Assembly: GCA_022791255.1 (NCBI GenBank)
Contig: JAAVYR010000022.1
Location: forward strand, 1 to 46,088
Reading direction: 5' to 3'
DNA length: 46,088 bases
Source: Peptococcaceae bacterium
GTDB lineage: Bacteria > Bacillota > Dehalobacteriia > UBA4068 > JAAVYR01
The position numbers and the translations under genes were made by a program. The notes below the pieces were generated by a model that made no database searches, was not told where the DNA came from, and saw nothing but the letters and a program-made list of their open reading frames with translations. Below are positions 2,630 to 17,198 of this stretch, in pieces. Within the stretch, counting starts at the first letter, position 1, and every line of letters begins with the position of its first letter.

Positions 2630-3691
2630 ATGCCTGGTGGAAACCGGACAGATCATAAAGCTATACATAAAAAAAGAAAAGTACAACGAAATAGAACCTT
2701 AGATTTGCTTGCTTTTTTATTATTGATTATATTAGGTACCATGTTTTTTATTCCTCTGAAAGAGTTCTTTGCGGCAAAAATGCTGAACTATGCTACAGTA
2801 ACAGATGGTATTTTGGAGGATAAGATAACAGCAGAAGGTATTATTATTTATGATGCCAAAGTAGTACAAGCCTCTGCCAGTGGTGAATTTGTACCGGTGG
2901 TTCCAGAGGGGGAGCGTGTAGCAGAAGGCGCTCTTGTGGGGTATTTTGTTACTGCCGCTGGTAAAAAGCCAATGTATGCAAGTGCTTCTGGGGCTGTTTC
3001 TTATCAGATAGATGGGTTGGAGGCAGTTCTGACGCCTGTGCAAGCAGATGGGATTGATTTGAATAAAATTTTAACCTTGTTAGATGGGGATGAACATCAA
3101 ATTGCCACACCGGATGAAGGGCAGCCTGTAAAAGATGGACAAGCTCCGGAAGAGTCAGTTCTTGGTGCAGGGAAAGGATTGTTCAAAATTGTGGATAATC
3201 TTTCGGATGTTTACTTTTTAGTGCAGGTAAAAGATGCTGATAAGGCGGCGGCTCTAGAACCAGAGCAGCGCATTCGCATTCGCTTACCAGAAGGTCAGCA
3301 GCAAAAAGAGACTAGTAGCATTGGGGCGGTAGAGGTGATAGATAGCCGCATTACGGCGACAGTTGCTTCGGTGACGCAAACTTCTAATGGAGCTCAAGTC
3401 TTATTAAAAATAAAAAGAAATGATATTGTGCTTTCTGGTGCACGGAAAATAACAATAGATATGCTTTTGGATACAATAAAAGGAAATATTTTGCCGAATA
3501 AAGCAATTTTTTATAATGAAGCAGGAAAACCATGTGTCTATGTCGTAAAGAAGAGTAGACTTGCCATTGCAGGAGTAGAGGTTATGGGGACGATAGATGA
3601 TATGTCTGTTATCGAGGGCCTTTCTATTGGCACGGCAGTGGTGACCAACCCTTCTCTTGCTAAAGCGCAACAAAAGGTATACTTCAAATAG
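2630..3691 (+). CDS. HlyD-like membrane-anchored periplasmic adaptor-type protein
   Basis: The protein has 353 residues. A very basic N-terminus (KKRKVQRNR) is followed by one transmembrane helix at about residues 25-43. An extracytoplasmic region then begins with a lipoyl/barrel-sandwich-like strand set ('ITAEGIIIYDAKVVQASASGEFVPVVPEGERV', broken here by role rather than position). C-terminal beta domains end 'TAVVTNPSLAKAQQKVYF'. The architecture matches HlyD-type membrane fusion proteins that sit beside yggS-sepF in several Firmicutes. No ABC or RND partner is adjacent, so a role in efflux is unproven. The ATG at 2630 has GGTGAGGTGG upstream, and a TATAAT at 2532-2537 may be part of its promoter. 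The stop lies just upstream of yggS, so the two are probably co-transcribed. Confidence 0.75.
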   Translation: MPGGNRTDHKAIHKKRKVQRNRTLDLLAFLLLIILGTMFFIPLKEFFAAKMLNYATVTDGILEDKITAEGIIIYDAKVVQASASGEFVPVVPEGERVAEGALVGYFVTAAGKKPMYASASGAVSYQIDGLEAVLTPVQADGIDLNKILTLLDGDEHQIATPDEGQPVKDGQAPEESVLGAGKGLFKIVDNLSDVYFLVQVKDADKAAALEPEQRIRIRLPEGQQQKETSSIGAVEVIDSRITATVASVTQTSNGAQVLLKIKRNDIVLSGARKITIDMLLDTIKGNILPNKAIFYNEAGKPCVYVVKKSRLAIAGVEVMGTIDDMSVIEGLSIGTAVVTNPSLAKAQQKVYFK

Positions 3692-9900: not shown

Positions 9901-10284
9901 TTATTTCTTAGTTAGTTGATAGCTTTCGTTAAGGAGGTAATAGATTTCGTCTTCTGGAATGGTACCATCTAAGCGAAGGGAAATCCAGTGGGTTTTATTC
10001 ATATGGTAGGCTGGGTGGTAGCCGTCGTTATTTAATAAAGTGGGGATGGCGGCAGGGTCAGCTTTGATGACCAATAAATCTATACAACCATTGGGATCGC
10101 TTGGATGAGAAAGATTTAATTTCGTGTAGGGTAAATCGACGATGATACCAAACCATTTTTGATTATGTGTATGCTTGAATACTGCATAGTTTGGGTACTT
10201 TTCCCAGAGATATTGGGGCGTTGTGTCAAAATTTTCTTTAGCATATTGGAAAATTTTTTGTCTAGAAACAGATTGTTTATTCAT
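9901..10284 (-). CDS. MmcQ/YjbR family protein
   Basis: This small protein (127 residues) of the MmcQ/YjbR superfamily has a CyaY-like DNA-binding-type fold and no defined function. Recognisable elements are 'TPQYLWEKYPNYAVFKH', 'KWFGIIVDLPY' (start of the central beta-sheet), 'DLLVIKADP', 'GYHPAYHMNKTHWISLRLDG' and 'IPEDEIYYLLNESYQL', the standard C-terminal pattern. AGGAG precedes the start. It follows the GLUG surface-protein gene by 45 bases on the same strand, so it could be the last gene of that transcript, though no functional link is evident. Confidence 0.9.
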   Translation of the reverse strand: MNKQSVSRQKIFQYAKENFDTTPQYLWEKYPNYAVFKHTHNQKWFGIIVDLPYTKLNLSHPSDPNGCIDLLVIKADPAAIPTLLNNDGYHPAYHMNKTHWISLRLDGTIPEDEIYYLLNESYQLTKK

Positions 10285-10329: not shown

Positions 10330-13300
10330 TTAACGGATGATGTTGTTTGAGGCAATGTCTTTTTTTGGGGGCTTGTTTTGCCTTTTTCGTTTTATTAGAT
10401 ATACTCCATAACTACTGGATAGCAGCAATAAGGCAATGACAGCATAAAGCCACAGAGGTGCGCTCTTTGGTACTTCATATAGGGTGAAAACTGGTCCCGG
10501 CGCGCTGCACTCTAAGTAACGGCCAAAAGGTTTGGTTTGGGCTGTTTGGATAGTATCGCCGCTGGCAATGATAATCTGACTGTTCTTTTTGAGTGGCAGA
10601 TAACGCACCTGATAGCTGGTCTTAGGAGCTTCATTGGTTATGGTTACTTGATAGCTGGCTAGGATAGTTTTTCCTTGGATTTTGGTTTTCTCGGCATTCT
10701 CAGAAATGGCGATTTGCCCGTTGTCATCAAAGGCACCGCAAACCAAGAGAATGGCTTTGCCATCTCGCTTTAATGCAGCAGGGAGGATTTCGATGGCGCG
10801 CTCGTATTCTGCTGTAAGGATAGCATCGTAAAGTGGCATGGTATAGTCATAGCTAGTCCAGGTGCCAAAGTAGCCTTTTTTTTCAGGGACTGTAGGGATA
10901 AGATTTGCGTCAATAGGCTGTCCGTAGGTATAGGGTAGGGTTGCAATAACTTGATCATCTGCTATGTAGGTAAGGCTGAAGGTGGCCTGATGTTGAAAAG
11001 TTTTTTCGATGAAGCGGCAATAATCTTCTATGGAAGCAGCTTCTGCCCGACCCTGATAGGAAATGCCATCAATACCGCCTAATTCCTTGCTGACAAAATA
11101 GTTTTGACTGATATCTTGCCTGTTTTCGCTATCAGCGCCACTGATAGCACCTTTGTTTTCATCGGCACGGGAGATATGTACTACTGCATAGCAATTGGTT
11201 ATGGTCTTACTTTGTCCGGCAATGCCCCCAACAAAATCATCTCCAGCTAGGGTGCATTTAGCAGCGCTATTGCGGATGAAACCATCTGAACTTCCTGCAA
11301 TACCACCTACAAAGCTGCCGTCAGTGCTTTCTATAGTTCCATAACCTTCACAGAGAAGTGCCGTACCCAAATCCATTTTGCCAACGATAGCACCGACATA
11401 ATGTTTTTTTCCGGTAATCATGCCATGGTTTTGGCATCCTTCAATGATGGCTTTGGTCTGATAAGTGAACCGGAGAGAGTCTTTGCCTTGTTTTACCACA
11501 TCATCTTCTGGGTCAAAGTCGTATTCTATGGCCATGGCGCCGGCAATACCGCCTGTATTGATATCTGCTTGGACATTGCCCTTATTACAGGACGCATAGA
11601 TTTTTCCTTGGGTAATGGAGGCTGTATTTTTGTCTGATACATCTTCGATAAAATCTTCTTTGGTTTCGGCTTGATTGCGGTCATAGGTATCCGAGAGTAT
11701 GTTAAGGATTTGCAAGAATTGTCCATTAACAGTCGTAAAGTCATTCATTAAGTCATCTTGAGTATCAGATATGTTCTGGTTGAGTTGAGAAACTTGGTCT
11801 TGTATGTTATCAAGAGAGGTGCGCAGGTCATCAATATTTCCCCGGAATTCTTGGTCTATTTCAGGGATTTGCAAGGTATCTCCACTATTGATGGTTCTGA
11901 TAGCGCGAGTTAATTCTGTAGCGCCTAAGGTTAGATAATCCATGCCGCGTTCCATATCGTATAGGCCGTCGGATAGTGAGTCTAGGCATTTTGCTAGTTC
12001 GGGGGCATGTTTTTTCATTTCTTGGAGGATCGCAGAGGTTTTCGCTAAAGTGGTTTTTAATGCTTCTAGCTGTTGTTGTAGCTGCCCGAAGGCTGCTTGC
12101 AGTTTTTGGATAGCTGCTTGGATAGCTGCAGGATCCAAGTCTTTGCCTAAATCAGGCAGTTGGTTTTGGATGGTGTCAATGGTTGCCCTGATGGCGGCAA
12201 TCTGTTCTGCAGTGAGACCTAGTTGGGTAATGAATTCTTGAATGGTGGCATCATCCGGCAAATAGCCTTGTTGTTGAAGAAACCGTAATATATCTTCGGC
12301 ATTGGTCAAATAGCTTTCTGAAACGGCAAGCTGTTGTTCGATGTTGCCGATGTCTTCTTTGATTGGCTCGGTATCTACAGGGGTAACGGTGCCATTATCA
12401 ATACTTGCTTGTAAATCGTCAATATGTTGTTCCAGATTGATTTGACCTTCCGGCAGAGAAGAGAGGACGGTTTGCTGTTCTCTTTGTGCGGCCTCTGCTT
12501 GTTGTAGTTTTGCTTCTATCTGATTTTGATTTGGCGTGGTCTGTTCTTCTTTATCGGAGGTGTCTGGTTGGGGACTATCTGCATCATTTTTTTTCACAGC
12601 GGCAGCAACATCACGAAGATATTTGACTAGTGCATCTCCCGCTTCCTCTAATTCAACAATGCCGGAACCTAGTTTTACGGTAGCAGTGGATATTTGTTGC
12701 AGACCTTTTTCCATATGGTCAAGACTTCTTGATACCCGCCGAAGTAGGTCATTGGTATCGGTAATGACTGTATCGGCATAATCCAGGGCGCTATCTGTCA
12801 TGGAGTCAGCTGCGTTAGCTGCGCTATCTAGTTGTTGGTTGATGTTATTTAAGGTATCAGTGATTTCATGGTCAGAACGATTTAATGTTTTGGTAATGGT
12901 AGATTGGGTAGCTCGTAAGGTATCGTTTAATTGTTGCAAGGCGTCTTTGCTGTATGCTTGGACGATGTAGGGTTCTGCTTGCCCGCAAATGCCGCCTACA
13001 TCCTTTCGACCGAAAATTTCACCGTTATTTTCGCAGTTTGCAATGACGCCGCTTTGTCTGCCGCAAATACCGCCTGTATTATACCCCACATGTTGATAGC
13101 CGATGGTACCGTCATTTTTGCAGCTATCGATTTTGCCTTTAGAAAAGCCTGCGATACCGCCGGTGTCTGTGGTTGCGTTAAAGTTTTCGGTGGAACGAAT
13201 AGCTGATAAATCTATTTCGCCATCGGGTGTCAAGTCTGATAAAGATTTTTTATTGGTGATGGTAGTGGTATTAACATTGGCATGGTTTTGGCAATTTGCA

Positions 13301-13944
13301 ATAGTACCAAAGTTTTGTCCGGTGATACCGCCGGTATAGCTTTCGCCTAAAAAGGCACCTTGGGCAGTGCAATAGGTGATAGTACCTGTTTCTGAGGTGT
13401 AGCCTGCGATGCCGCCAACATTGCTTTTCCCGGTTATGGTGCCGTTAAAGGTGCAATAGGTGATAGTGCCGTCATTGTTGCCGGCAATGCCGCCTAAGTA
13501 TTTTGGGTTGCCTTCTGGGGCAATAAGGCCTGTTACTGTTAAGTTTTCTATCTTGCCGCTGGACTGTACATAACGGAATAAACCTTGATAGGAGCCTTTG
13601 TCTGTAAGGTGAAGCCCGGATATGGTGTGTCCGTTGCCCCGGAAAGTGCCGCCGAAAGAAGGAATGGGCGTAAAGTCCATGGCGGATAAATCAATATCAC
13701 TGGTGAGCTCTACAATTTTATTTTGGGACCAGGTATCTAGGGTGCAGTTCTTGCCCAAGTCTATCAGGTCCGAACCATTGCGGATATAAATTTTATTTTC
13801 ATTTTGGGTTGTGGTTTTTGTATTCTCCGAAGTGACGGCAAGGGCTGGTACTGGAATACAATTTACCCAGAAAAAGGAGACCAGTAACAGGCTGGATAAG
13901 ATTTTCTGAAATATCTTCTTATTGATTGTTGTTTTTGTTATCAT
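10330..13944 (-). CDS. Large GLUG-repeat and coiled-coil surface protein, C-terminal membrane anchor
   Basis: The protein has 1204 residues. A signal peptide (about 1-37, ending PALA) leads. Next comes a beta-helical region (about 50-325) with GLUG-type repeats such as 'YLGGIAGNNDGTITYC', 'VGGIAGYTSETGTITYC' and 'TGGICGRQSGVIANC'. A very long Gln/Leu/Asp-rich coiled coil runs from about 330 to 770. More GLUG repeats follow (about 790-980, 'FVGGIAGSSDGFIRNS'), then two beta domains ('LTYIADDQVIATLPYTYGQPI' begins the first), and one transmembrane helix (about 1164-1184) before a basic tail. The start overlaps the end of the MMPL gene by 26 bases, so the two are translationally coupled and probably act together. 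GLUG proteins are surface or adhesive proteins. The coiled-coil plus single-anchor layout recalls the extracellular part of YhgE/Pip-like proteins, but that is inference. Confidence 0.8.
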   Translation of the reverse strand: MITKTTINKKIFQKILSSLLLVSFFWVNCIPVPALAVTSENTKTTTQNENKIYIRNGSDLIDLGKNCTLDTWSQNKIVELTSDIDLSAMDFTPIPSFGGTFRGNGHTISGLHLTDKGSYQGLFRYVQSSGKIENLTVTGLIAPEGNPKYLGGIAGNNDGTITYCTFNGTITGKSNVGGIAGYTSETGTITYCTAQGAFLGESYTGGITGQNFGTIANCQNHANVNTTTITNKKSLSDLTPDGEIDLSAIRSTENFNATTDTGGIAGFSKGKIDSCKNDGTIGYQHVGYNTGGICGRQSGVIANCENNGEIFGRKDVGGICGQAEPYIVQAYSKDALQQLNDTLRATQSTITKTLNRSDHEITDTLNNINQQLDSAANAADSMTDSALDYADTVITDTNDLLRRVSRSLDHMEKGLQQISTATVKLGSGIVELEEAGDALVKYLRDVAAAVKKNDADSPQPDTSDKEEQTTPNQNQIEAKLQQAEAAQREQQTVLSSLPEGQINLEQHIDDLQASIDNGTVTPVDTEPIKEDIGNIEQQLAVSESYLTNAEDILRFLQQQGYLPDDATIQEFITQLGLTAEQIAAIRATIDTIQNQLPDLGKDLDPAAIQAAIQKLQAAFGQLQQQLEALKTTLAKTSAILQEMKKHAPELAKCLDSLSDGLYDMERGMDYLTLGATELTRAIRTINSGDTLQIPEIDQEFRGNIDDLRTSLDNIQDQVSQLNQNISDTQDDLMNDFTTVNGQFLQILNILSDTYDRNQAETKEDFIEDVSDKNTASITQGKIYASCNKGNVQADINTGGIAGAMAIEYDFDPEDDVVKQGKDSLRFTYQTKAIIEGCQNHGMITGKKHYVGAIVGKMDLGTALLCEGYGTIESTDGSFVGGIAGSSDGFIRNSAAKCTLAGDDFVGGIAGQSKTITNCYAVVHISRADENKGAISGADSENRQDISQNYFVSKELGGIDGISYQGRAEAASIEDYCRFIEKTFQHQATFSLTYIADDQVIATLPYTYGQPIDANLIPTVPEKKGYFGTWTSYDYTMPLYDAILTAEYERAIEILPAALKRDGKAILLVCGAFDDNGQIAISENAEKTKIQGKTILASYQVTITNEAPKTSYQVRYLPLKKNSQIIIASGDTIQTAQTKPFGRYLECSAPGPVFTLYEVPKSAPLWLYAVIALLLLSSSYGVYLIKRKRQNKPPKKDIASNNIIR

Positions 13945-16453
13945 CTGTTATTGCTCCTTTCTGCTCATTTTCTTGTGTTGCGGGGTATTGTTCTGATATT
14001 TGTTCAGGTGCCAAAGGAACTGTATCTGATCCGTTATCAGGCTGTAGTTTTGTGTTGGTATCAATATGGATTTGTCCTTTTACATTGCCTTTGACGATAC
14101 CATGAATATCAGCATCTACAAAGCCGTTAATATAGCCGCGAACTCTGCCATTGACGACAAATATGCCAGTATCGTTTTTAATGGCGTCTGGTCTTTTCAG
14201 GTCGAAGCTGGTTCGCTCGATAAGAATATCACCTAAAAGTAAAATCTCAGGGAGAACGCACATAACTAAGAACATGGAGATAATGGTACCTCTGCCTAGA
14301 TTTGCACCGATAGAAACAATGCTAGGGTCTGTAGATAATTTACTGATAAGGAAGCCTGCCGCAGCTAGAATACTGCCAGAAGTCAGTACTGTGGGAAAGG
14401 CGAAGTTCAGGGCTTCTGTTATGGCTTCTTTTAAGGGTAGCTCTTTTTTTAGTTCTAGGTAACGATTAGAAATTACAATCGCATAGTCGATGTTTGCCCC
14501 CATCTGGATGGAACTAACAATCAGATAGCTTAAAAAGAAAAGGGGTGCATTGGTCAGGTAGGGGAAGGAAAAGTTAATCCAGACGCTGCCCTGAATGACG
14601 GCAATGAGGAGGATGGGTAGTCCTGCGCTTTTAAAGGTGAAAAATAACACGATGATAACAAACAGTACGGATAAAATGCTGATAATGGTATTGTCACGGT
14701 CGAAGGAGGCAGATAAATCATAGTCACTGGTGGAGTTGCCTACGACATAAACGGTATCATAGTATTTCCCAGCGATGGTATGTACGCGGTCGATAAAGCG
14801 AAACGTTTCTTCTCCTTCTTCCGGCATATCCAGGTGTAGCAGTATTCTGGTGTAATTTTCCCCGGAAAGCTGTAGCCGAGCGTCTTCTAATTTAATGTGC
14901 ATATCATCTAAGTCTGCTGCCAAGTCGTCATCTAAGTCCAAATAACCATCTTCCTTTAAATCATATACATACATGAAAATATCGATTAAAGGGATGCCGT
15001 ATTCATCAATGCCGCGGATAAGCTTGGCATAATCTTCGTTTTCTGTGGTGTAGAGGGTATAGAGCAGTTTTGCCAGCTCTACATCAATATCGCATAATTC
15101 GGAAAATTGCCGCGGATTTAATTTATCTGTGAGCATATAATCGTCTTTGGCTTCAATATTAGCAAGGGCAGTAATATCTTTTATCTCTTGATAACTGAGA
15201 AGCTCTCCGATAAGAGCCTTTTCCTTTTCATAATCGCCCTTTGGCACTAGAAGTGCTGCTACATTGGTGGTACCAAAGTTTTCTTCAATACGGTCGCTGG
15301 CGATTTGGACATCATTTCGTTTATCTGTTTTTAAGGAGTGTTCTCCATAGACAAAAGGACATAGTGAGGAGAAATGATAGGCAATCAGAATGACAACAAC
15401 AAAAATCACCGGCACGATATTTTTTAGCTTTACGACGATTTTCCCTAGCAGGGATATTCTAGGTACGAAGCTCTTGTGGGGTGTTTTATCGATGTATTTG
15501 CCAAATATCATCAGGAGACAAGGCATTAATGTAAATACAGATAGTAAGCTGAACAAGATAGATTTAATTAATACCATGCCCATATCAAAACCGATTTGGA
15601 ACTGCATGAACATCAGGGCTGCTAGGCCTGAAATGGTAGTCAGAGAGCTAGCGGAAATTTCTGGAATGGCCTTACTAAGGGCTACAACGACGGCATCATG
15701 AATATCATGAGTTTTTCGTTCTTCGCTGTAGCGGTGTATCATGATGATGGCATAGTCGATAGATAGTGCCAGCTGCAGTACTGCTGTAACAGAATTTGAT
15801 ACAAAGGAGATTTCACCAAAGATAAAGTTGGTGCCTTTATTTAAAATAGCAGCAGCGACAAAGGTTAGCAGCATAACGGGAATTTCCATATAAGTGCGAG
15901 AAGTAAAAAGCAATACGCCAACAATGATGACGGCTGCGACGGCTAGTACTACATTCATTTCGCTGGCTAGCTGTTGAGAGTTATCTGTTTTACTTCTGGT
16001 GATATAGGTGTCATAATCTTGCAGTAGGTTTTCGATTTCTCCATAGCTTTCATCCAGAAGTGCGTCGTCTTCCTCTTGGACTAGGGTAACAGAAAAAAGA
16101 GCGCAGGTATTGGTATAGTGGTCCGTGCTATCGTCAAACTCTACCATACTGACAGAAGGAAGCGCTTCCAGTTCTTCGCTGATAATTTCTGCCTCTTGAT
16201 AAGAAATATTCATTACCATTACTTTTGCTGTGGCATAGGTAACAAATTCCTCTTCCATGATGGTAAGGCCTTGGCGCGTCTCTGTCGTATCAGGCAAATA
16301 TTCCGTCAAATCGTTACAGACTTCTACCCAACCAGAGGAAAAGGCAGAGAAAATCATCGCAGCAATATATAATAGAAAAAATAAATTTCGCTTATCAATG
16401 ATAAATTCAGCGATTTTTTCCATAATAGATGTGGTAGGTTTTTCTTTTTTCAT
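13919..16453 (-). CDS. MMPL/RND family exporter with glycine-periodic C-terminal tail
   Basis: This 844-residue integral membrane transporter has two repeated halves. Each half has one helix (first at about 20-42), a large extracytoplasmic domain and a five-to-six-helix bundle. Family signatures are 'LALSIDYAIIMIHRYSEE' in the first bundle and 'MGANIDYAIVISNRYLE' in the second. MMPL/RND proteins export lipids, drugs or peptides using the proton gradient. After the last helix the cytoplasmic tail has an unusual stretch (about 745-785) of the type G.V.G.I.G.V.A.I.G.V.G.V, like a bactofilin beta-helix, then a disordered Gln/Asn/Glu tail. The ATG at 16453 is preferred over the GTG at 16504 because GGAG lies seven bases upstream and the longer version would begin inside the operator. 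It is co-oriented and overlapping with the GLUG gene, and divergent from a TetR regulator. Confidence 0.88.
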   Translation of the reverse strand: MKKEKPTTSIMEKIAEFIIDKRNLFFLLYIAAMIFSAFSSGWVEVCNDLTEYLPDTTETRQGLTIMEEEFVTYATAKVMVMNISYQEAEIISEELEALPSVSMVEFDDSTDHYTNTCALFSVTLVQEEDDALLDESYGEIENLLQDYDTYITRSKTDNSQQLASEMNVVLAVAAVIIVGVLLFTSRTYMEIPVMLLTFVAAAILNKGTNFIFGEISFVSNSVTAVLQLALSIDYAIIMIHRYSEERKTHDIHDAVVVALSKAIPEISASSLTTISGLAALMFMQFQIGFDMGMVLIKSILFSLLSVFTLMPCLLMIFGKYIDKTPHKSFVPRISLLGKIVVKLKNIVPVIFVVVILIAYHFSSLCPFVYGEHSLKTDKRNDVQIASDRIEENFGTTNVAALLVPKGDYEKEKALIGELLSYQEIKDITALANIEAKDDYMLTDKLNPRQFSELCDIDVELAKLLYTLYTTENEDYAKLIRGIDEYGIPLIDIFMYVYDLKEDGYLDLDDDLAADLDDMHIKLEDARLQLSGENYTRILLHLDMPEEGEETFRFIDRVHTIAGKYYDTVYVVGNSTSDYDLSASFDRDNTIISILSVLFVIIVLFFTFKSAGLPILLIAVIQGSVWINFSFPYLTNAPLFFLSYLIVSSIQMGANIDYAIVISNRYLELKKELPLKEAITEALNFAFPTVLTSGSILAAAGFLISKLSTDPSIVSIGANLGRGTIISMFLVMCVLPEILLLGDILIERTSFDLKRPDAIKNDTGIFVVNGRVRGYINGFVDADIHGIVKGNVKGQIHIDTNTKLQPDNGSDTVPLAPEQISEQYPATQENEQKGAITDDNKNNNQ

Positions 16454-16481
16454 GGTAACACTCCAATATGTTAGTTTGTAG

Positions 16482-16508
16482 ACAAGTGTATTTTTTATTG
16501 ACACTTGT
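16482..16508. promoter_or_regulatory. Inverted repeat, probable operator of the TetR regulator
   Basis: ACAAGTGT (16482-16489) and ACACTTGT (16501-16508) form a perfect 8-base inverted repeat with an 11-base spacer in the divergent intergenic region. It overlaps the -35 of the rightward promoter and lies at the start point of the leftward one, so one bound dimer could repress both. Confidence 0.6.
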
Positions 16509-16526
16509 TATTTTACACTATATGAT
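16498..16526 (+). promoter_or_regulatory. Candidate promoter of the tetR-type gene
   Basis: TTGACA at 16498-16503, a 17-base spacer and TATGAT at 16521-16526. The -35 box overlaps the right arm of the inverted repeat. Confidence 0.55.
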
Positions 16527-16538
16527 GTAGGTAGGCAA
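16510..16538 (-). promoter_or_regulatory. Candidate promoter of the MMPL-GLUG operon
   Basis: Read on the minus strand: TTGCCT (16538-16533), a 17-base spacer and TAAAAT (16515-16510). The predicted start is near 16503, inside the inverted repeat. Confidence 0.45.
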
Positions 16539-16628
16539 GAAAAAGCCTGGTATCAATTTATACATTTTGTTTGTTATGCGACAATTAATGATATTTGTCT
16601 GATAAAATGAAAGAGATGAGGCATTTCT

Positions 16629-17198
16629 ATGAAAGAAGATTTAAGGATTAAACGAACCCACAAGCTGTTATCTGAGGCATTAGTTTTGCTTATGAGTGAA
16701 AAGCCTTTTGAGAAAATTACAGTGGTGGATATTTGTGAACGGGCCATGGTGCACCGGGCTACCTTTTACGCCCATTTTGCAGATAAATATGAATTACTAA
16801 AGTTTGTTTTGCAAACCTTTGAAGCAGCATTTGATAATGAAGATGTGACTACCCATGATATTGCAGGTTATCGTTCCTATTATCTATCTGTAGCGTCGGA
16901 TATCATTGATGAGATAGCCAAGCGAAAAGATCTGATGGCAACCATCATTCATAAAAACCAGGAAGAGTCCTTTTTAGCGGGTATCCGTTATCGTTTAACA
17001 GATAAAATATTAGAAAAGCTGCTGAAATGTAATGATAACGGTATGGTATTGCCGGTGCCAGCAGAAGTATTAGCGCGGTTTTATGCCGGAGCGTGCATGA
17101 GCATCTTGGAATGGTGGATTGTAGATGGGCAGGATATTTCTAAAGAACAGTTGGTATCCTATTTAAATCGTTTAATCTTAAACGAACATCTTTCTTAA
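16629..17198 (+). CDS. TetR/AcrR family transcriptional regulator
   Basis: The protein has 189 residues. The N-terminal helix-turn-helix reads 'KRTHKLLSEALVLLMSEKPF', then 'ITVVDICERAMVHRATFYAHFADKYELL', the classic TetR DNA-binding signature with 'RATFYAHF' in the recognition region. The C-terminal ligand domain (about 75-185) ends 'FYAGACMSILEWWIVDG', which is like the TetR_C_8 type seen in regulators of MMPL and YhgE-like envelope genes. GAGG precedes the ATG. The gene is divergent from the exporter operon, with a shared operator between them, so it most likely represses that operon and itself. The ligand is unknown. Confidence 0.93.
   Translation: MKEDLRIKRTHKLLSEALVLLMSEKPFEKITVVDICERAMVHRATFYAHFADKYELLKFVLQTFEAAFDNEDVTTHDIAGYRSYYLSVASDIIDEIAKRKDLMATIIHKNQEESFLAGIRYRLTDKILEKLLKCNDNGMVLPVPAEVLARFYAGACMSILEWWIVDGQDISKEQLVSYLNRLILNEHLS

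Follow-up and report, generated by a model that had tools for sequence, protein, structure and literature searches.

A GLUG-domain β-helix protein encoded beside an MmpL-type exporter, a candidate outer subunit in a monoderm bacterium

The locus and its genes

A stretch of 46,088 nucleotides from a Peptococcaceae bacterium (assembly GCA_022791255.1, contig JAAVYR010000022.1; hereafter the window) carries the gene for an exporter of the MMPL/RND family and, overlapping its end, the gene for a large surface protein with GLUG repeats, which we call the partner. The two genes are constant neighbours in relatives, the paired form of the exporter has an extracytoplasmic insert of its own, and the partner is predicted to fold as a β-helix interrupted by a long helical part. 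An earlier reading of the letters alone (the sequence-only reading) had described divergent TetR, MMPL and GLUG genes, an overlap of 26 bases and a GLUG product of 1204 residues, with which the open reading frames (ORFs) and the Pfam matches agree (Table 1). The exporter matches PF03176 (MMPL) at E 8.9e-38, with 130.5 bits against a curated cut-off of 20.5, and the partner matches PF07581 (Glug) in three stretches (E 2.7e-14; 52.9 bits against a cut-off of 20.5); the regulator protein matches both TetR_N and TetR_C_8. For the exporter, the ATG preceded by TTGGAG is the likelier start, judging from the sequence, over the upstream GTG. The partner gene has its own AAAGGAG, nine bases 5' of its ATG and within the MMPL gene. 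Across the 1.56 Mb genome the exporter is the sole match to itself. Omp85 was not found in this genome, which is 96.76% complete, the control search being positive in 7 of 14 genomes, and we therefore take the host as a monoderm.

Table 1. Features of the locus, in window coordinates (mature, numbering of the mature partner)
Feature	Position	Strand	Remarks
MMPL/RND exporter	13919..16453	-	844 aa from ATG 16453; 861 aa from GTG 16504
Partner (GLUG protein)	10330..13944	-	1204 aa: signal peptide, interrupted β-helix, C-terminal β-domains, transmembrane helix, basic tail
TetR-family regulator (TetR_N + TetR_C_8)	16629..17198	+	189 aa; divergent from exporter; Pfam
Exporter/partner gene overlap	13919..13944	-	26 bases
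YjbR/MmcQ-like gene	9901..10284	-	Pfam; downstream of partner, 45-base gap
First GLUG zone	12952..13794	-	mature 14-294; β-helix (model)
Helical insert of partner	11689..12942	-	mature 298-715 (model, sequence)
Second GLUG zone	11095..11649	-	mature 729-913; stacks on first in model
C-terminal transmembrane helix of partner	10387..10455	-	mature 1127-1149; model and sequence; basic tail after
~90-residue insert, second extracytoplasmic domain of exporter	14888..15157	-	residues ~450-539 in the 861-residue numbering; putative docking site
C-terminal Gly-rich β-strand tail of exporter	14045..14179	-	exporter residues 776-820; expected cytoplasmic
Candidate TetR operator	16482..16508	.	perfect 8-base inverted repeat, 11-base spacer
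Promoter-like site, exporter operon	16510..16538	-	TTGCCT-17-TAAAAT; weak consensus match

Exporter and partner occur as a pair

The exporter has at least 582 relatives in the named genomes of bacteria and archaea that were scanned, and the best 80 of these make up the locus set; because they are the closest relatives, these loci are not an unbiased sample. A GLUG relative is the next same-strand ORF after the exporter in all 78 loci that can be judged, the contig stopping just past the exporter in the other two (L045 and L079). A neighbourhood search for MMPL plus GLUG pairs had been proposed in the sequence-only reading, and the wide separation of the two genes that it had allowed for was not seen in relatives. 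No other neighbour is constant in the 80 loci when all flanking ORFs are grouped, a grouping in which the exporter and GLUG ORFs were included in any case. In loci L009 and L014 the partner is broken up into two or three frames, perhaps through sequencing error or decay.

The two genes also keep company across the phylum. Among 398 genomes sampled from it, the partner profile matches five at E ≤ 1e-40 and the exporter profile 39 at E ≤ 1e-60. The long form of the exporter reaches full score in four of the 39 and is present as a contig-end fragment in a fifth (G353), and the genomes that encode the partner are precisely these five. In the remaining 34 the exporter is mostly about 700 residues long, and none of the 25 of these loci that were fetched has a GLUG relative in its flanks (at most 1.5 kb). 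Moreover, the exporter and partner trees correlate with r 0.89, the best of 2000 permutations reaching 0.16. This correlation fits joint inheritance and does not by itself show contact, because it is confounded by shared descent.

Architecture of the partner

The partner begins with a signal peptide, read by eye, and export of the partner by the MMPL protein was set aside as needless, since the partner carries this signal of its own. The mature protein was folded with 71 relatives (predicted local distance difference test, pLDDT, 83.1; predicted template modelling score, pTM, 0.61). Two GLUG zones, as the sequence-only reading had described, are borne out by GGxxG motifs that fall in residues 151-321 and 798-910, and its C-terminal membrane anchor corresponds to the one transmembrane helix of the model. 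Further β-domains lie between the second GLUG zone and this helix.

The β-helix of the first zone resembles that of an IgA1 protease (7uvk; VIA Z 25.7, root-mean-square deviation, rmsd, 3.2, 261 residues aligned). With chondroitinase B, which is a single continuous β-helix, 327 residues align over residues 15-948 of the model (rmsd 3.4), more than the ~281 residues of the first zone; hence both zones must stack as one β-helix in the model, and it follows that the helical part must leave and re-enter it at one place. The two GLUG zones thus seem to make up a single β-helix, into which a helical stalk and bundle is inserted. Neither the best 25 of 36 Pfam matches (E ≤ 1) nor the 13 NCBIfam matches include a peptidase family, so that the partner is not placed among the IgA1 proteases. 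MmpS is likewise absent among the best 25 of the 36 Pfam matches and among the VIA matches listed, though likeness to MmpS is possible. MmpS has a single N-terminal transmembrane helix and a β-sandwich; in the partner a β-domain lies near the membrane, and the transmembrane helix is C-terminal. YhgE/Pip proteins have several transmembrane helices; a relation to them, which the sequence-only reading had mentioned among known accessory proteins, finds no family match among the Pfam and NCBIfam matches listed, and the partner has only the signal peptide and the one C-terminal helix.

Between the zones the sequence has a heptad-like periodicity (best period 3.56; power 4.48, against 1.91 for the 99th percentile of shuffles), one of four sub-stretches, mature 489-558, not rising above shuffles. 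The coiled coil of roughly 440 residues proposed for this region therefore stands as far as its helical, heptad-like nature goes, but the model shows many helices that match antiparallel bundles. The stretch 368-651 resembles a designed antiparallel six-helix barrel (Z 13.7, rmsd 3.7, 209 aligned), at a score that helical bundles may approach without being related. A Foldseek search with the partner model gave no match at E ≤ 0.001.

It is the helical part that varies in length. Across 72 partners the β-helix zones are constant (interquartile ranges 252-261 for the first and 275-277 for the second), whereas the helical part measures anything from 325 to 852 residues, its lengths clustering at 331-342, 410-417, 497-505 and 563-569, with intermediates and with outliers up to the maximum. 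On the exporter tree the four length classes require 15 changes, compared with 30.9 when labels are shuffled; the classes thus cluster by descent and yet recur. Steps of ~65-90 residues would fit one helical hairpin each. A fixed internal repeat of long spacing was considered and rejected, as heptad lags dominate and only weak peaks occur near 78-85; the repeat signal being weak, growth by hairpins rests on the length classes and their 15 changes. The helical part of locus L061 (760 residues) is broken in its middle by long acidic, Gly/Ser/Asp-rich, non-helical stretches.

The exporter carries an insert in the paired form

The exporter model (pLDDT 82.9, pTM 0.75) has MmpL5/MmpL4 as its closest solved structures (VIA Z 44.2, rmsd 4.7, 650 aligned), with AcrB-type structures tied or slightly below in VIA scores. 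Two Asp-Tyr pairs, D250-Y251 and D673-Y674 in the 861-residue numbering, are invariant in the alignment of 79 paired exporters; we take these pairs to be the proton relay of RND transporters. That the exporter is proton-driven follows from its family.

Two segments set the paired form apart. When it is aligned with the 25 unpaired exporters (of 34 found), residues ~450-539 are left unfilled except for ~458-469, so that the insert is absent from all 25. In the 79 paired exporters, by contrast, it is 91 residues long in 76, 96 in two and 92 in one, and its mean majority-residue frequency is 0.71, compared with 0.64 and 0.69 for the parts of the domain that precede and follow it. In the model it consists of short helices between strands, none longer than ~21 residues. 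The second segment lies at the end of the protein: beyond residue ~780 the alignment with the unpaired exporters is again unfilled, and the tail is conserved in the paired form only. Its sequence begins VNGRVRGYINGFVDADIHG and is bactofilin-like by eye. A bactofilin-like nature of the tail was not upheld, as none of 10 tails has a Pfam match.

The genomic island and its regulator

Of 43 genomes of the class, three have the partner, and all three belong to this genus. In each of them YjbR-GLUG-MMPL-TetR, as far as the contig covers these genes, sits between pyrB and DUF5665-lspA. Outside the genus the comparison covered 27 of 29 matched genomes of the window's order; in 14 of these 27 loci pyrB is followed immediately by DUF5665-lspA-rluD (or by DUF5665 alone at a contig end), and in the other 13 ileS takes that place in two and the rest are without pyrB in the stretch covered. 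Since the module is present in 3/3 genus members and the site is empty in relatives, it is most simply read as an acquired island. Identity to the sibling species is 62.5 and 76.1% for the GLUG protein, compared with 92.3 and 84.1% for the exporter. YjbR was considered as a third member of the module and rejected; it is present in 3/3 genus members but in 0/80 other loci.

The TetR gene is present in all three genus members, and in the upstream flanks of the locus set TetR_C_8 (12) and TetR_N (9) are the only Pfam families found in more than three of 119 genes (of 121 in all, one each from loci L081 and L082 being left out). TetR is an optional companion of the pair. The inverted repeat between tetR and the exporter gene is a good operator candidate; it overlaps the -35 element (TTGACA at 16498) of the best promoter-like site, which is that of tetR, and is kept with one change in the sibling-species locus L004, although the repeat may be a chance match. 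Promoter-like sites are individually weak, because 28 were found in the region and 18.1 are expected. A small protein of ~107 residues is encoded near the exporter in five loci (for example L054, 7635-7958), directly before it in four of them.

Discussion

The constant adjacency, the co-occurrence over 398 genomes and the insert confined to the paired form strongly support the proposal of the sequence-only reading that the two proteins are one machine, and we consider it likely that exporter and partner form a dedicated complex. The reading that we favour, which seems to us about equally liable to be right or wrong, is a two-subunit monoderm exporter of the MmpL type, in which the outer extension is encoded in trans. 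A proton-driven transporter of the RND/MmpL type would draw a hydrophobic or amphipathic compound out of the membrane. The partner would be its dedicated extracytoplasmic subunit, secreted by means of its signal peptide and held by its C-terminal membrane helix. We infer that the two dock, in whatever stoichiometry, and the ~90-residue insert in the second domain of the exporter is the probable docking site. One β-helix could then serve as a rigid platform from which the helical stalk and antiparallel bundle extend out into the cell wall. In this way the partner would supply in trans what MmpL4 and MmpL5 make from their own coiled coil plus MmpS, the membrane-tethered stalk holding the assembly together and guiding cargo off the membrane. 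Possibly, TetR responds to the cargo or to stress and regulates the operon through an operator in the shared intergenic region.

The closest parallel is that of MmpS4-MmpL4 and MmpS5-MmpL5. According to the available parts of two reports (PMC12501195; PMC12803245), these share with the present pair the RND/MMPL fold, a single-pass partner encoded in the same operon, an extended second extracytoplasmic domain and a helical structure that points outward. In MmpL5 the coiled coil is an insertion in the second periplasmic domain and is needed for efflux, and a tube of coiled coils has been published for MmpS5L5 (PMC12501195, in the portion available). The sequence-only reading had cast the partner as a possible exit duct or stabiliser, which this tube would make more plausible by analogy. 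In MmpL5, however, 196 residues of coiled coil are inserted within the transporter itself and the MmpS partner is small (PMC12501195; PMC12803245, same portions); here the insert of the transporter is short, no long coiled coil is present in its second extracytoplasmic domain, and the outward helices belong to a 1204-residue partner and are carried on a GLUG β-helix. A tripartite system of the AcrAB-TolC type has an outer membrane to cross, and the present genome yields no Omp85.

FarE-FarR of Staphylococcus aureus likewise has a divergent TetR and an RND/MmpL pump, but the available part of its description names no outer partner (PMC10019231); the locus studied here has the same layout, a likeness at the level of gene arrangement only. 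ApeX of Bacillus anthracis is an RND exporter of a Gram-positive that is related to MmpL4, described as lacking a docking domain and with no GLUG partner named in the portion of the report available (PMC5596346). Unpaired Bacillota MMPL proteins of ~700 residues have the same core (best matches to the family profile at E 1.8e-61 to 1.5e-103) but are without the second-domain insert, the C-terminal β-tail and the GLUG neighbour in 25 of 25 examined. On the side of the partner, the GLUG β-helices of IgA1 proteases (7uvk, 6xjb, 3n6z) are alike in fold (Z 24.6-25.7, rmsd 2.6-3.2, 245-261 aligned); in contrast to these, the β-helix here is interrupted by a helical insert of ~420 residues and paired with an exporter, with the peptidase family wanting among the matches given above.

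Several observations weigh against a two-subunit exporter. The structure models cover single chains, and contact between exporter and partner rests on inference. The alignment with MmpL5 stops before the second extracytoplasmic domain, so the site of the insert is not matched to that of the coiled coil. The base of the stalk has a pLDDT of about 60-75, in a model whose pTM is 0.61, and the helical part resembles many unrelated bundles, with a best Foldseek E of 5.3e-3. The 80 loci are only the top-scoring part of the relatives. The tree correlation carries the confounding noted above, 29 of 67 splits being common to both trees, and for some loci, such as L011, the nearest neighbours in the two trees differ. 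A divergent TetR relative lies within 2 kb upstream in only 20 of the 80 loci. Finally, the flanking genes offer no hint of a cargo, as no metabolic gene recurs among the 119 upstream genes.

How far the partner does more than hold the assembly in place is a separate matter. That it is a conduit rather than a scaffold is a possibility that we lean slightly against. In its strongest form, the partner would be a true outer adaptor of Clostridia that have no outer membrane, docked on the insert, with the β-helix and the helical bundle or barrel encoded in trans as a conduit through the thick wall whose reach is adjusted by the gain or loss of entire helical hairpins, ~65-90 residues per step; this we find rather unlikely. 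Alternatively, the partner may be a scaffold or anchor, its β-helix binding wall glycan and placing or clustering the exporter while the cargo leaves into the wall. The β-helix does resemble glycan-handling folds (chondroitinase B, pectate lyases, tailspikes), the extra β-strand tail of the paired exporter could cluster it from inside, and the helical length tolerates large change. Fold likeness to β-helices is, however, no proof of glycan binding, and a conserved extracytoplasmic insert of constant length is not obviously needed by a pure anchor; a scaffold alone seems to us unlikely, though less so than the two readings that follow.

On another reading the partner acts at the surface as an adhesin or shield, and the exporter brings out a (glyco)lipid for its modification or for joint display; the two would then belong to one pathway without needing a stable complex. 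The GLUG zones share their β-helix fold with IgA1 proteases and other surface proteins, and when sibling species are compared the partner has diverged faster than the exporter, both of which speak for such a role. Yet no modifying enzyme is constant in the 80 loci and the insert strictly accompanies the partner, which makes an adhesin quite improbable. The weak matches of the helical part include a chemoreceptor ligand domain (8f7n; Z 8.5, rmsd 11.7, 244 aligned), and a partner of this kind could act as a sensor or gate that opens or inhibits the exporter in response to a compound or to envelope stress. Matches of the 8f7n type are, however, within the range of common helical arrangements, and the helical length is unconserved, unlike what is expected of a ligand site; we regard a sensor as very improbable.

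No paper on GLUG with MMPL, or on this pair, was found in full-text literature searches, whose coverage leaves out most subscription papers. The parts are of known kinds, and what seems new is the kind of outer subunit that accompanies an MmpL-type exporter. Less is understood of RND pumps in monoderms than in Gram-negatives, and most descriptions of the monoderm pumps mention no outer partner; the pair makes it testable whether monoderms build extensions on them, and provides a separate case against which the role of the MmpL coiled-coil tube can be compared. The paired form occurs in many gut Clostridia, with strain records that include Oscillibacter, Flavonifractor, Hungatella, Enterocloster and Anaerotignum. 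It would also point to a likely function for a large family of GLUG surface proteins that are otherwise labelled adhesins. A GLUG-domain protein from an infant gut metagenome activates NF-kB, with no link to an exporter stated in the available part of the report (PMC8480279). A second GLUG protein is encoded in the genome studied here, on another contig (G000 contig C15, about 3059-3400; L124, L125), in an open frame of 1589 residues.

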